From assembly GCA_023248635.1 (NCBI GenBank), contig JAHFED010000013.1:14266-78265 (forward strand): a DNA stretch of 64,000 nucleotides, written 5' to 3'. The notes under the pieces were generated by a model. That model worked only from the letters and a program-made list of their open reading frames with translations. It did not search any database and was not told the origin of the DNA. The DNA is from Myxococcales bacterium (GTDB lineage Bacteria; Myxococcota; UBA727; VGSZ01). The translations under genes and the position numbers were made by a program. Positions within the stretch are counted from its first letter, which is position 1. Every line of letters starts with the position of its first letter. This document shows positions 4,232 to 54,902 of this stretch, piece by piece.

Positions 4232-4382
4232 CTAGCAGGGTGCGGAAAAACTCCGTTTTTCGCACCCTGCTGTACTTCCGGAGGGTCTGTCCCAGACCCT
4301 CCCTCGTCGAGGCGAAGCCTCGACGAGCCTCCCTCCCAAGGACGCGTCTGCCTCAAAACTTCGTTTTTCAGCAGCCTGCTAG
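4232..4382. mobile_element. MITE-like element with CTAG ends
   Basis: A 151-bp non-coding element bounded by CTAG at 4232-4235 and 4379-4382. The ends are imperfect terminal inverted repeats: left AGCAGGGTGCGGAAAAAC and, read inward from the right, AGCAGGCTGCTGAAAAAC (16 of 18 match). Inside are three hairpins in a row: GCAGGGTGCG...CGCACCCTGC, GGAGGGTCTG...CAGACCCTCC, and CTCGTCGAGGC-GAA-GCCTCGACGAG. No transposase frame is present. CTAG may be a target duplication, as known for some IS5-group elements; the parent family is not identified. The right CTAG contains the TAG stop of the lipoprotein gene at 4379-5299. Confidence 0.65.
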
Positions 4383-5299
4383 TGACCGATCTGAGCGAAC
4401 ATGCCGTTTTCAGGTTCGAAGTAGCCGACGACGACGCCCGTGGCCGCCTCGTCGACGTCGCCGTCGGCGTCGATGGCTTCACGCACCCCCTCGAAGCGAA
4501 CGACCAGCACGTAGTCGATGGCGGGCTCGAGGGAGGGCTCGTCGGTCTCGGTGCGCCCCACGAGCTCCAAGCCCGTGTCGACGTTGACGTTGTGCAGCAC
4601 CTCTGATCTTTCGCTGGTCTCTTTCAGGTTGCGCTCGACGACACCGCGGCGGACGGAGAGGTCGGGTTGATCGGCGAGCTCGTTGTGGCTGCGGGTCAGG
4701 CTGCGGCCGGTGCCGGGGCGCGTGACCCACTCGCCCTCGGCCATCACCTTGGTCTCGACGATCTGAAAAGCGCGGCCGCCGCCCATGCTGCGCCCGTGGC
4801 GCGCAGCCCCGCGCAAGATGAGGGTGCGACCAACGTAGCTCTCGGGTTCGGCCAGAGCGGCCTGCAGCGAGTACACGGGCATCTTGCGGCGCCGCAGCAG
4901 CCGCAGGTCGTTGCCGACGTCGCCGCCGCGCACCGCGATCACATGGGCCAGCAGGAGAGCAGCGTCGGGGTCGGCGGCCATGGGCTCAGCCCAGATTCCT
5001 TCGATGAGGATCTCGAGGTTGGAGAAGTCGTTGCGGCGAATGCAGTGGCGCATCACGGCCCACCCGCGCGGGGGATCCTTTTTGTGCATGGCCCGCGCGG
5101 TCTGCTCACAAGCCCGAGCGATGTCGTGGGCGGCGGCGATGCGGCGGGCCTCGTCGTCTTTGAGCTCGGCCCGCACCAAGGTCTCGGGCTCGCGCGCGTC
5201 CTCCCACAACACGGTGGGCTCGGTGCCGACGCCTTGGGACGTCGTCGAGCAGCCCGACCACACAGCGACCACGACGACGAAGCACGACAGGCGCAACAT
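4379..5299 (-). CDS. Putative lipoprotein of unknown function
   Basis: A 306-residue predicted lipoprotein: hydrophobic N-terminus then lipobox WSGC, giving an N-terminal Cys at about residue 17. A helical region with CEQTARAM and AVMRHCIRRNDF follows, then a beta-rich stretch starting near SYVGRTLILRGAARHG that resembles domains of other myxobacterial lipoproteins handling gene-product assembly, but I do not recognise a named family. Its stop codon TAG sits in the CTAG end of the adjacent MITE-like element, so the element may have changed the original C-terminus. It lies 12 bp after the gene at 5312-5911 and is probably cotranscribed with it. Confidence 0.7.
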   Translation of the reverse strand: MLRLSCFVVVVAVWSGCSTTSQGVGTEPTVLWEDAREPETLVRAELKDDEARRIAAAHDIARACEQTARAMHKKDPPRGWAVMRHCIRRNDFSNLEILIEGIWAEPMAADPDAALLLAHVIAVRGGDVGNDLRLLRRRKMPVYSLQAALAEPESYVGRTLILRGAARHGRSMGGGRAFQIVETKVMAEGEWVTRPGTGRSLTRSHNELADQPDLSVRRGVVERNLKETSERSEVLHNVNVDTGLELVGRTETDEPSLEPAIDYVLVVRFEGVREAIDADGDVDEAATGVVVGYFEPENGMFAQIGH

Positions 5300-30277: not shown

Positions 30278-31222
30278 ATGCCACGCGTCTCCCTCGTCGA
30301 AGCCCTGGGACTGCGGCCCCTTCCCCTCGCGGCCCGGCAGTTGGGCATGGTGCTGTTCGGCAATTCTCTCACGCCAAAATCGCGGTTTGATCACACGAGT
30401 CTAAAGATTTTTATGCCCCGGGTATCTCTAGCGACGTGGCTGGGTAGGACGCGTTCCGATCGCTTTCTTCCCATCCTCAATTTTTTCAATCGTACACCGA
30501 CACCCTTCGAAGAAGGCTGGTCGGTGCGCAAGACCCAGGCGAGGGATTGGCGCGGCGGCAGTCTCACCTACGACTCCCACAACGGCACGGACTTCGTCGT
30601 TCCACCGGGGACGAGGGTGTGCACGGCGGCCCCCGGCATCGTCGCCACGATTCGCCGCGAGTTTCACCGCGGGGGACTCAAGATCTACGTCGACCACGGT
30701 GGCTCCCTGGTGACCACATACAACCATCTCGCACGTTCATGCGTTGTCATTGGGCAAGAGCTTCGCCGCGGATCTGAGGTCGGCTTATCTGGTGCCTCTG
30801 GCGCAGACTCGACCTTCATGTTTCCCTGGGCCGCTCCCCACCTGCACTTTAACGTATGGTTTGGCGGTGTCGCCGTCGACCCCTACGCCGCCGCCGATGA
30901 GACCTCCTGGTGGCGAGCGAGAAACGATCCCCGACCCGCGGACAGCGGGGCTGAGGGCGCTCCGATCATGAGCTCCTTCGACGTCGAGGGAGTCGCCCGC
31001 TTGCGCCAACGCTGTCGCGATCCCCACGTCGCTGCCAATGCCGACGCTGCCGGCGGTGTGCAGCGCCAGGGCATCGAGTTGCTCGTCGAAGCGATCACGT
31101 ACCCCACGCGCTTTGCCTGCGCCGAGCCGGGACGACTCTTGTTTGCGTCCACCTCATCACCCTGGGGAGCCCTCGACCTGCCCTTTCACCGCGACGACTT
31201 CGACGGTACCGTCATCCTCTGA
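30278..31222 (+). CDS. M23 (LytM-type) metallopeptidase
   Basis: A 314-residue predicted zinc peptidase that cuts peptidoglycan cross-links. Zinc ligands are seen in SHNGTDFVVPPGTRV (His and Asp) and PHLHFNVWF (catalytic and ligand His), with the linking IYVDHGGSLVTTYNHL between. There is no signal peptide or membrane helix, so export is unclear. The start at 30278 is chosen from MPRVSLVEALGLRP; the longer frame to 30236 is possible. An AT-rich codon stretch covers about 30361-30510. The TGA stop at 31220-31222 is also the first three bases of a 208-bp repeat. Confidence 0.85.
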   Translation: MPRVSLVEALGLRPLPLAARQLGMVLFGNSLTPKSRFDHTSLKIFMPRVSLATWLGRTRSDRFLPILNFFNRTPTPFEEGWSVRKTQARDWRGGSLTYDSHNGTDFVVPPGTRVCTAAPGIVATIRREFHRGGLKIYVDHGGSLVTTYNHLARSCVVIGQELRRGSEVGLSGASGADSTFMFPWAAPHLHFNVWFGGVAVDPYAAADETSWWRARNDPRPADSGAEGAPIMSSFDVEGVARLRQRCRDPHVAANADAAGGVQRQGIELLVEAITYPTRFACAEPGRLLFASTSSPWGALDLPFHRDDFDGTVIL

Positions 31223-31427
31223 TCCCCGATCTCGCTGAACTTCGACCGCGGAGCGGTCTCGTTCAGCTCCGTCGGGGATGCCCTTCCGGGAGGTCTGATG
31301 CAGACCCCCCGCGCCGGCGGAGCCGGACGCGTGGCCCCCCACCAACTCCGCGGGCGCGCTTCACGCGCATCATCCCGCGTCTTTCCAATTCAACACGCGG
31401 TCGAACATCAAGCGGACGCGGGATGAG
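31220..31427 (+). repeat. Multi-hairpin intergenic repeat, copy R1
   Basis: First of three roughly 210-220 bp copies (others at 52511-52728 and 54900-55118) with very high identity. Order of hairpins: a nested stem with ATCCCCGA..TCGGGGAT, GCTGAAC..GTTCAGC and GACCGC-GGA-GCGGTC; then GGAGGTCTG-ATG-CAGACC; then a CCGGC-GGA-GCCGG stem; and a last long-range stem ending in GCGGGATGA. This copy lacks part of the CCGCGTTCCGCGG stem present in the others. It begins with the TGA stop of the peptidase gene. Confidence 0.88.
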
Positions 31428-51794: not shown

Positions 51795-52271
51795 TCAAAG
51801 ACCATGTCGAGCCAGGAACTCGCGGGTGGTGGCGAGATCTTCCTCGGCGTGTTTGCGACGCAGCTCGTCGTAGCGGGCCTTGCTCCAGAGCTCGATCTTG
51901 TCGATGACACCGAGCCACACCGCATCACGCTCGAGGCCGGCGTGGTCGCGCAGCTCTCGCGGCACACTCACGCGACCGGCCTTGTCGATGCTAACGACCG
52001 AGGCCGGCGCAATCACGAAGCGCTTGAACGTCGAGACCGCCGGATGCGAGGGCGGCAGGGCCCGCACCTTTTCCGCCTGCGCTTGAAAGTCGGCCTCGGT
52101 CATGCCGACCAGGCAGGGCTCAAAGAGCGATTGCGTCAGCACAAAACGATCGAGGTCGTCGCCTTCCTTGGATCCTTTTCTGGATGGCGCGAGCAGCGCC
52201 GGACGCAGCGCCGTCGGAAAAGCCACGCGGCCTTTCTCGTCCATCAAGCAGTGGTGGAAGCCAAAGATCAT
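51795..52271 (-). CDS. mraZ: Transcriptional regulator MraZ
   Basis: First gene of the dcw cluster. It encodes a 158-residue ring-forming DNA-binding protein with two AbrB-like swapped-hairpin halves. Seen: FHHCLMDEKGRVAFPTALR and SIDKAGRVSVPRELRDHAG, the two DxxGR...P motifs, with LWSKARYDELRRKH at the end. MraZ represses its own promoter in several bacteria by binding direct repeats. Candidate boxes and a sigma-70 promoter lie just upstream (52316-52367), supporting autoregulation here. Confidence 0.95.
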   Translation of the reverse strand: MIFGFHHCLMDEKGRVAFPTALRPALLAPSRKGSKEGDDLDRFVLTQSLFEPCLVGMTEADFQAQAEKVRALPPSHPAVSTFKRFVIAPASVVSIDKAGRVSVPRELRDHAGLERDAVWLGVIDKIELWSKARYDELRRKHAEEDLATTREFLARHGL

Positions 52272-52337: not shown

Positions 52338-52367
52338 ACTGTATGGGCGGGCGAATTTCAGTGTCAA
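52338..52367 (-). promoter_or_regulatory. Sigma-70-type promoter of the dcw cluster
   Basis: Minus strand: a perfect -35 hexamer TTGACA (52362-52367), an 18-bp spacer and -10 TACAGT (52338-52343), four of six matches to consensus. Transcription would start near 52331, about 60 bases before mraZ, inside the candidate MraZ boxes. Confidence 0.6.
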
Positions 52368-52513
52368 TGAAAGGCCGCTGGAACACGGATCTCAGAGATC
52401 GACCTCTAGATTTGGTGGCTGGAGCGCATGTTCAGCCCTTGAATGTTGGTGGATCCAAGTGGATCAGTCGAGCAAGGTCCCTCGTCTTTGAGGGCCCGCT
52501 TCGGCGTCCCTGA
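52367..52513 (+). CDS. Possible 48-residue ORF ending at repeat R2
   Basis: An ATG-initiated frame of 49 codons whose TGA stop is the first triplet of repeat R2. The product contains LDLVAGAHVQPLNVGG and ends RARSLVFEGPLRRP. It overlaps the mraZ promoter on the other strand and has no clear ribosome site, so it may be chance. It is listed because the two other copies of the repeat also start at a stop codon. Codon use is less GC-biased than in neighbouring genes. Confidence 0.22.
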   Translation: MKGRWNTDLRDRPLDLVAGAHVQPLNVGGSKWISRARSLVFEGPLRRP

Positions 52514-52728
52514 TCCCCGATCTCTCTGAACTTCGACCGCGGAGCGGTCTCGTTCAGAGCCGTCGGGGATGCTCTTCTGGGAGGTCTGGTGCAGACCTCA
52601 CCCGCGCCGGCAGAGCCGGACGCGGGGCCCCCCACCAACTCCGCGTTCCGCGGGCGCGCTCCACGCGCATCATCCCGCGTCTTTCCGATCTCAGAACGTG
52701 GTCGAACATCAACCGGACGCGGGATGAG
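52511..52728 (+). repeat. Multi-hairpin intergenic repeat, copy R2
   Basis: Second copy (218 bp) of the family at 31220 and 54900. Relative to those it has T at 52525 and A at 52558 where they have G and C: a paired change that preserves the stem, plus a G at 52559 that adds a pair. It begins with TGA and ends GCGGGATGAG, and lies between the mraZ promoter and the beta-barrel gene. Confidence 0.9.
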
Positions 52729-53717: not shown

Positions 53718-54215
53718 TCAGCGACCGCGGGTCTGCTGGCGCACCGCCTCAAAGACGACGACGGCGGCGCACTGGGCGAGGTTGAGCGAGCGGATGCCCG
53801 GGCGCTGCGGCAGGGTGAGGATGCGCTGGGGATGCGCGGCTTGAACGTCGTCGTCGACGCTGCCTTTTTCGGGTCCGAGCACGACGACGGCGCCGGACTT
53901 CAAGTCAGCGTCCCACGGGGTCTGTGCCGAGCCGACCTCGACGATCCAGGGCTGCTCTTGCAGCAGGGCCAGACAGCGCGCGAGCGAATCGTGGAAGTGC
54001 ACGCGAGCCTTGGGCCAGTAGTCCAAGCCGGCGCGCCACATCGATCGGCAGCCGGGGTCGAGCTGGGAGCCGCACACGTGCAAGGCGGCTCCCGTCGCTG
54101 CGCACAGGCGCACGCAAGCCCCGACGTTGCCGGCGATGGCGGGTCGGTCGAGCACGAGGTGAAGCAAGGGCCCCGCGTCGTCGTCGCGTGCTAATTCCCG
54201 ATCATGCTCGCCCAT
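53718..54215 (-). CDS. trmL: tRNA (cytidine(34)-2'-O)-methyltransferase
   Basis: SPOUT-family methyltransferase that modifies the wobble base of tRNA-Leu isoacceptors in E. coli; 165 residues, the usual length. Seen: LHLVLDRPAIAGNVGACVRL followed by CAATGAALHV, VVVLGPEKGSVDDD and the knot region IRSLNLAQCAAVVVFEAVRQ. The N-terminus has an unusual charged extension (GEHDRELARDDDAG). Its start region overlaps that of the divergent lipoprotein gene by 12 bp; no better internal start is seen. Confidence 0.88.
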   Translation of the reverse strand: MGEHDRELARDDDAGPLLHLVLDRPAIAGNVGACVRLCAATGAALHVCGSQLDPGCRSMWRAGLDYWPKARVHFHDSLARCLALLQEQPWIVEVGSAQTPWDADLKSGAVVVLGPEKGSVDDDVQAAHPQRILTLPQRPGIRSLNLAQCAAVVVFEAVRQQTRGR

Positions 54216-54902
54216 CGCACCTTGCTCGCTTCAACCCTGCTTGCTTGGGGCATGGTGTTGCACGGCTGCTCGTGCGGCAAGACCGACGAGGAGCTCGCGC
54301 CCAAGAAGGGCTTCCTCGACGACCTGGTGCGCCGACGGGTGCCCGACACCGACCTCATCTTGGGCCTGCCCAAGGGCTGGCTCATCGAGATGCCGAACCC
54401 CGGGCCGATGCCGCCGCCGACGAAGGCGACCAAGGTGGAGCTCAAGACGCGCACGCTGCTCAGCGCCCGCCCCGGCACGCCGGCGCCGGGCACCTTGGTC
54501 GCGCCCCAGCTGTTGGTACTCGAAGATCCCTGGCTGCCGCTGGGCACCACCGGCGTCGACTATCTGGTGGCCCAACGCTCGAGCAACCAGACGGTCATCG
54601 GCAGCAACATCCGCCACGTCGACGCCGAACCCTCTCGTCGCGAAGGCCGGCCGAGCTATCACATCCGCGATGAGTGGACGGTGCAGGGCGGAAGCTTCAG
54701 CAAGGACATCTCCCAAGAAGCCTTGCTGATCCTCGACGACGTCACCGCCCCCGACGGCAGCGCCGCCATGCACGGCTACACGGTGGTGATGACACTCGAG
54801 AAGGCGGAGTTCCCTCGGCTGCAACCGCTGCTGCGCGAGATCTTCGCCTCGGTGCATTTCGAAGAGCGCGATCTCAAGCGCGTCGACGCCGGCACGCCCT
54901 GA
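54204..54902 (+). CDS. Putative lipoprotein of unknown function
   Basis: A 232-residue predicted lipoprotein: the signal MLAHRTLLASTLLAWGMVLHG ends in lipobox LHGC (then SCGKTDEELAPK). Beyond it are IFGLPKGWLIEMP-like and DEWTVQGGSFSKDISQEA segments, and a tail with TVVMTLEKAEFPRLQPLLREIF. No family is recognised; a small beta-rich periplasmic domain of the kind that recurs in myxobacterial lipoproteins seems likely. Its start overlaps the divergent trmL start. Its TGA stop is the first triplet of repeat R3. Confidence 0.68.
   Translation: MLAHRTLLASTLLAWGMVLHGCSCGKTDEELAPKKGFLDDLVRRRVPDTDLILGLPKGWLIEMPNPGPMPPPTKATKVELKTRTLLSARPGTPAPGTLVAPQLLVLEDPWLPLGTTGVDYLVAQRSSNQTVIGSNIRHVDAEPSRREGRPSYHIRDEWTVQGGSFSKDISQEALLILDDVTAPDGSAAMHGYTVVMTLEKAEFPRLQPLLREIFASVHFEERDLKRVDAGTP

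Follow-up and report, generated by a model that had tools for sequence, protein, structure and literature searches.

A paired base change in the left-end hairpin of a stop-prone MITE-like repeat marks one subfamily, and covariation points instead to an adjacent two-hairpin core

The 64,000-nt stretch of Myxococcales DNA analysed here (the window) contains three copies of a repeated element, W1, W2 and W3. In W2 (copy R2 of the preliminary description), a paired base change in a hairpin had been taken as covariation and hence as a sign of a structure under selection. We find that the data as a whole are probably best explained by a MITE-like element that inserts at TNA and is prone to stop codons, in which the paired change is a subfamily marker and a neighbouring two-hairpin core is the conserved structure. 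The conclusion that structure is under selection was not supported for the flagged hairpin, but it does appear to apply elsewhere in the repeat, to the core. The features concerned are the following (window positions).

52511-52513, plus strand: left target-site duplication TGA of W2 (an identical TNA lies on both sides of 77/85 clean copies)
52514-52724, plus strand: MITE-like element copy W2, 211 bp, TCCCC...GGGA
52514-52541, plus strand: left imperfect terminal inverted repeat of W2, 28 bp (19/28 positions match the right end in the consensus alignment)
52697-52724, minus strand: right imperfect terminal inverted repeat of W2, from the alignment of copies
52725-52727, plus strand: right target-site duplication TGA of W2
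52513-52570, plus strand: hairpin 1 of W2 (the flagged stem), holding pairs 52525/52558 and 52524/52559
52573-52638, plus strand: two-hairpin core of W2 (covariance model R1, 70.8 bits)
52581-52599, plus strand: hairpin 2 of W2, GAGGTCTG..CAGACCTC
52601-52626, plus strand: hairpin 3 of W2, CCCGCGCCGGC..GCCGGACGCGGG, with a bulged A
31220-31426, plus strand: copy W1 with both TGA duplications; ORF 30278-31222 ends on the left one (31220-31222), which serves as its stop codon
54900-55118, plus strand: copy W3 with both TGA duplications; ORF 54204-54902 ends on the left one (54900-54902), which serves as its stop codon
4232-4382, plus strand: a different MITE-like element with CTAGCAGG ends and the same two-hairpin core at 4274-4339

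The bases at the flagged positions were confirmed: W2 has T at 52525, A at 52558, C at 52524 and G at 52559, while the homologous bases of the other two window copies (hairpins from 31222 and 54902) are G, C, C and T. Thus, among the three window copies, T-A replaces G-C and C-G replaces C.U in W2, as had been described. The W2 hairpin folds at -37.1 kcal/mol (z = -5.6, with 0/200 dinucleotide shuffles as good), and hairpin 1 of the other two copies at -35.2 kcal/mol. We aligned 98-103 copies from the genome, in which column 15 corresponds to 52525 and pair 15-48 to 52525/52558. Across 98 copies this pair was G-C in 88, T-A in 9 and T.C in 1, that is, two alleles, with T-A restricted to one subfamily; the copies so marked number 9-10 of the 98. 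The G at 52559 was present in 46/98 copies opposite an invariant C at 52524, so this column varies on one side only, and the restoration of a missing pair, although real within the window trio, is not special to W2.

The preliminary description had proposed an alignment of all copies as the check on covariation. For the flagged hairpin, this alignment returned essentially one inherited subfamily event rather than several independent compensatory changes: with a tree inferred from the remaining columns of the alignment, pair 15-48 required 3 Fitch changes and T15 required 2. The copies with T15 were also marked at columns 152, 184, 190 and 204, none of which pairs with the flagged positions. 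One G-C copy (L090_1508) was nested among the T15 copies, suggesting G-C as the earlier state in that clade. The T-A pair is therefore the marker of one subfamily, having originated in one event, or two to three at most, and spread by transposition.

It remained to consider whether the hairpin of each copy is selected for its fold, with the paired change as a compensatory mutation. Pair 52525/52558 stays formed in 97/98 copies, and hairpin 1 is far more stable than its shuffles, as this reading would predict. However, it has only one or a few events to draw on, most of the ~100 copies have mismatches elsewhere in this stem (C.C in 93, T.C in 92, C.T in 54 and C.T in 57), and private mutations ignore the stems, which together make it highly improbable. 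Private substitutions per site amounted to 0.0067 in stems and 0.0069 elsewhere (p = 0.93), and 11/46 preserved pairing, with 8.7 expected; individual copies have no protection from pair-breaking mutations. No useful consensus emerged when RNAalifold was run on the complete set of full copies, probably because rearranged rows disturbed it.

Hairpin 1 also changes by copying of one arm onto the other. In 5 copies the 5' arm TCT had become CGG, the exact complement of the 3' arm (TCT 93, CGG 5). These five conversions were separate, tree-independent events spread over two subfamily backgrounds, in which three adjacent bases changed together without intermediates. A sixth 5'-arm conversion was found in a copy near a contig end (L115), and two further conversions affected the 3' arm, one of them with inversion of the spacer, giving arm copying in 8/124 hairpins. 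After de-duplication, a true spacer inversion was kept by one copy only (L157); several other hairpins with an apparently inverted loop were rejected, as they were the same palindromes read from the opposite strand. Template switching is known to homogenise the arms of inverted repeats, to invert spacers and to yield apparent compensatory changes (PMC8604942, PMC8794818). Repeated rewriting of one arm from the other is thus a mutational route to covariation that needs no selection. Taken together, the few inherited events, the arm copying and the unprotected pairs mean that the flagged evidence does not show selection.

The W2-type subfamily is distinguished by a 3' arm fully complementary to columns 14-16, the state expected after a short tract has been copied. 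The bases changed in this arm were most likely replaced in a single event that used the other arm as template (a template switch, or "quasipalindrome correction"), with the reservation that a tract of only three bases could also come from ordinary substitution in a source copy. Under such a substitution model, neutral point mutations in one source copy would have happened to restore pairing and hitch-hiked, with no template switching. The subfamily does have at least four other diagnostic changes, so that several accumulated on a branch representing 1.1% of tree length. Even so, that 52525, 52558 and 52559 should all end up complementary by chance is unlikely, and arm copying is demonstrably frequent in hairpin 1; we regard the neutral account as quite unlikely. 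Somewhat better placed, though still unlikely, is selection acting on a few source copies only, in which a transposase or replication would need the left-end hairpin while dead copies drift. Hairpin 1 is formed in every subfamily, and the elements of sister species have a left-end hairpin whose arms are different but complementary. Yet the source copies are not recognisable, the most numerous subfamilies are those with internal mismatches, and arm copying accounts for complementary arms without selection.

We then characterised the repeat that carries the hairpin. The element is non-coding, dispersed and 211-218 bp long, and is present in about 170-190 copies in a 6.5-Mb genome; genome pattern scans gave 184 matches to the hairpin core (3 in the control) and 189 to the 3' end (22 in the control). 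Alignment of copies with their flanks revealed sharp boundaries, TNA|TCCCC...GGGA|TNA, the duplicated triplet being TGA in 52, TCA in 15, TAA in 7 and TTA in 3 of the copies with identical flanks. With its short, non-coding, multicopy body, a target-site duplication of fixed length and terminal inverted repeats, the repeat is a MITE-like non-autonomous DNA transposon, and the flagged hairpin is its left-end palindrome. In close relatives, orthologous sites were found empty (L236 filled, with L266 and L274 empty; L217 filled, with L288 empty), so the core-bearing elements are insertions and mobile. Some copies are nested, the element having inserted into the TGA in the hairpin 2 loop of another copy (L090, L088, L101, L111), and tandem copies share one common TNA (L094, L152, L159, L085). 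Within the window, W2 lies upstream of the divergently transcribed ORF 51795-52271, beyond its promoter-like site at 52338-52367; we take this ORF, from its product and position, to be mraZ-like. Scanning the full set of species genomes with the element pattern gave five single matches in unrelated organisms, which we judged to be chance because none formed a repeat family.

The element would be moved by a putative transposase acting in trans. Searches of the genome found no DDE_Tnp_4 or DUF4096 domain (IS5-type transposases), in an assembly that is incomplete; the autonomous element may have been lost or left unassembled. Many contigs end in or near the repeat (e.g. C5, C47, C73, C93 and C41), so the missing autonomous element may be in assembly gaps. 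The only DDE_Tnp_1 matches were two Tn5-like genes, neither carrying both element ends. These Tn5/IS50-like genes (L164, 1261-2649, minus strand; L165, 1375-2340, minus strand; one apparently intact, 462 aa) each lie directly against a left half-element that is truncated; both junctions use one internal point, ...CCCCCCGCGCC, and the side of the transposase on which the half-element lies differs between the two. Transposases of the Tn5-like family typically produce duplications of about 9 bp. The Tn5-like enzyme was rejected as mobiliser on account of these longer duplications and because the genes abut only truncated halves at one internal point.

The positions of the insertions were then compared with those of stop codons, using a simple home-made codon-usage gene caller for the stop-codon tests. 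Insertions lay exactly on a stop codon in 32/77 clean copies by gene calling and in 37/77 by a direct ORF test, with 17.4% expected from TNA sites outside genes or on stops (p = 6e-7 for 32/77). Any TNA reads as a stop codon on one of the two strands (TGA or TAA, or TCA or TTA reversed). Because the target is a one-strand stop codon and its duplication restores it, we infer a survival bias: an insertion at TNA would reinstate the stop and leave the protein intact, and such insertions would survive. In the second type of MITE-like element, at 4232-4382, the right CTAG overlaps the TAG stop of the minus-strand ORF 4379-5299; ends resembling its CTAGCAGG type are also found in the sister species G001 and G002.

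The core is found well beyond this genome. A covariance model detected it in 13/97 genomes of the phylum. These include members of the same genus (G001, G002), the same family (G003), a second family in the order and two other phylum lineages, but none of the family f13 genomes among the 97. In an alignment made by sequence similarity, and thus not fitted to the structure, 91.0% of cells were paired and 9/21 pairs had changed on both sides (49 cells); the covariation score of hairpins 2 and 3 was reached by 0/500 shuffles, and slid controls were at most 51% paired. A phylum set of 80 matches gave 92.8% paired cells and both-side change in 18/21 pairs (217 cells), in an alignment (A3) that was fitted to the model and favours its structure. 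The bulged A of hairpin 3 was invariant in 22/22 sequences of the first alignment, and whole-arm copying would not preserve it. These sequence comparisons argue that the core is a structure under long-term constraint, covarying strongly between species, and it is here, not in hairpin 1, that the strong evidence for a conserved structure lies. In G003, some cores have an extra hairpin inserted between hairpins 2 and 3 (L194, L195, L192). In four related genomes (L204, L273, L267, L268), one orthologous stop codon is followed by core-like hairpins whose stems are different but complementary; they may reflect an old insertion with in-place change or repeated insertion, which are indistinguishable.

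Outside MITEs, 32/75 core copies begin at a distance of 0-13 nt behind a real stop codon, compared with 2.3% of random positions. All six strongly scoring G003 copies among these 75 have the core right behind the stop. In G001 and G002 this was the case for 0/18 core copies, because another hairpin precedes the core. Such placement in several families would fit an intrinsic transcription terminator recruited many times. An intrinsic terminator has a GC-rich stem followed by a U-run; no T-run follows the core, and a terminator scan finds none there. In addition, sequence identity between copies in unrelated genes and the empty orthologous sites show dispersal of the core rather than to convergent terminators, and recruitment as a terminator is accordingly improbable. 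By analogy with REPs, the core in the transcript would form a double stem-loop at the 3' end, which might impede 3' exonucleases or act on termination or on ribosome release. A broader proposal, which we put forward tentatively and consider doubtful, is that a phylum-wide class of mobile double hairpins targets or survives mainly at stop codons, reinstating the stop and supplying a structured 3' end, and that the core has been swapped between transposons with unrelated ends for its usefulness at mRNA 3' ends.

At gathering thresholds, no Rfam family matched anywhere in the window, and relaxing the cutoff to E = 5 around the element added nothing. Our literature search found no description of this core-bearing repeat family, which does not prove its absence; the structured 3'-end repeat, spanning several families of the phylum, is apparently undescribed in the literature searched. 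The flagged hairpin provides a worked case of apparent compensatory evolution produced by shared descent and arm copying, by which covariation tests on repeat families can be misled. In this genome, a TNA target that is always a one-strand stop codon would account for a transposon filling a compact genome with insertions while leaving genes intact.

The arm conversions resemble template-switch (quasipalindrome) mutation in their multi-base homogenisation, spacer inversion, parallel events and apparent compensatory changes; whereas published template switching was seen across species or strains, here the pattern is seen among the scattered copies of one mobile element within a single bacterial genome. 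REP and BIME palindromes likewise sit shortly after stop codons: the TAG stop itself can come from a GTAG REP (PMC3733652), and REPs no more than 15 nt from a stop codon have been reported to affect translation (PMC12306157). Compared with these 20-40-bp palindromes, the present core is larger, with two hairpins in about 67 nt, and inspection by eye revealed neither a GTAG nor a CGTC tag. The window element is also flanked by clear 3-bp target duplications, a feature that REPs are not known to have. There is also a likeness to bacterial MITEs such as Chunjie of Geobacter uraniireducens (178-235 bp; PMC10969869), which are also short and non-coding, with inverted ends, a target duplication and many intergenic and truncated copies. 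In contrast to these, the insertions described here cluster on stop codons, and the interior carries a conserved two-hairpin core that is also found in elements with unrelated ends or with no ends at all.
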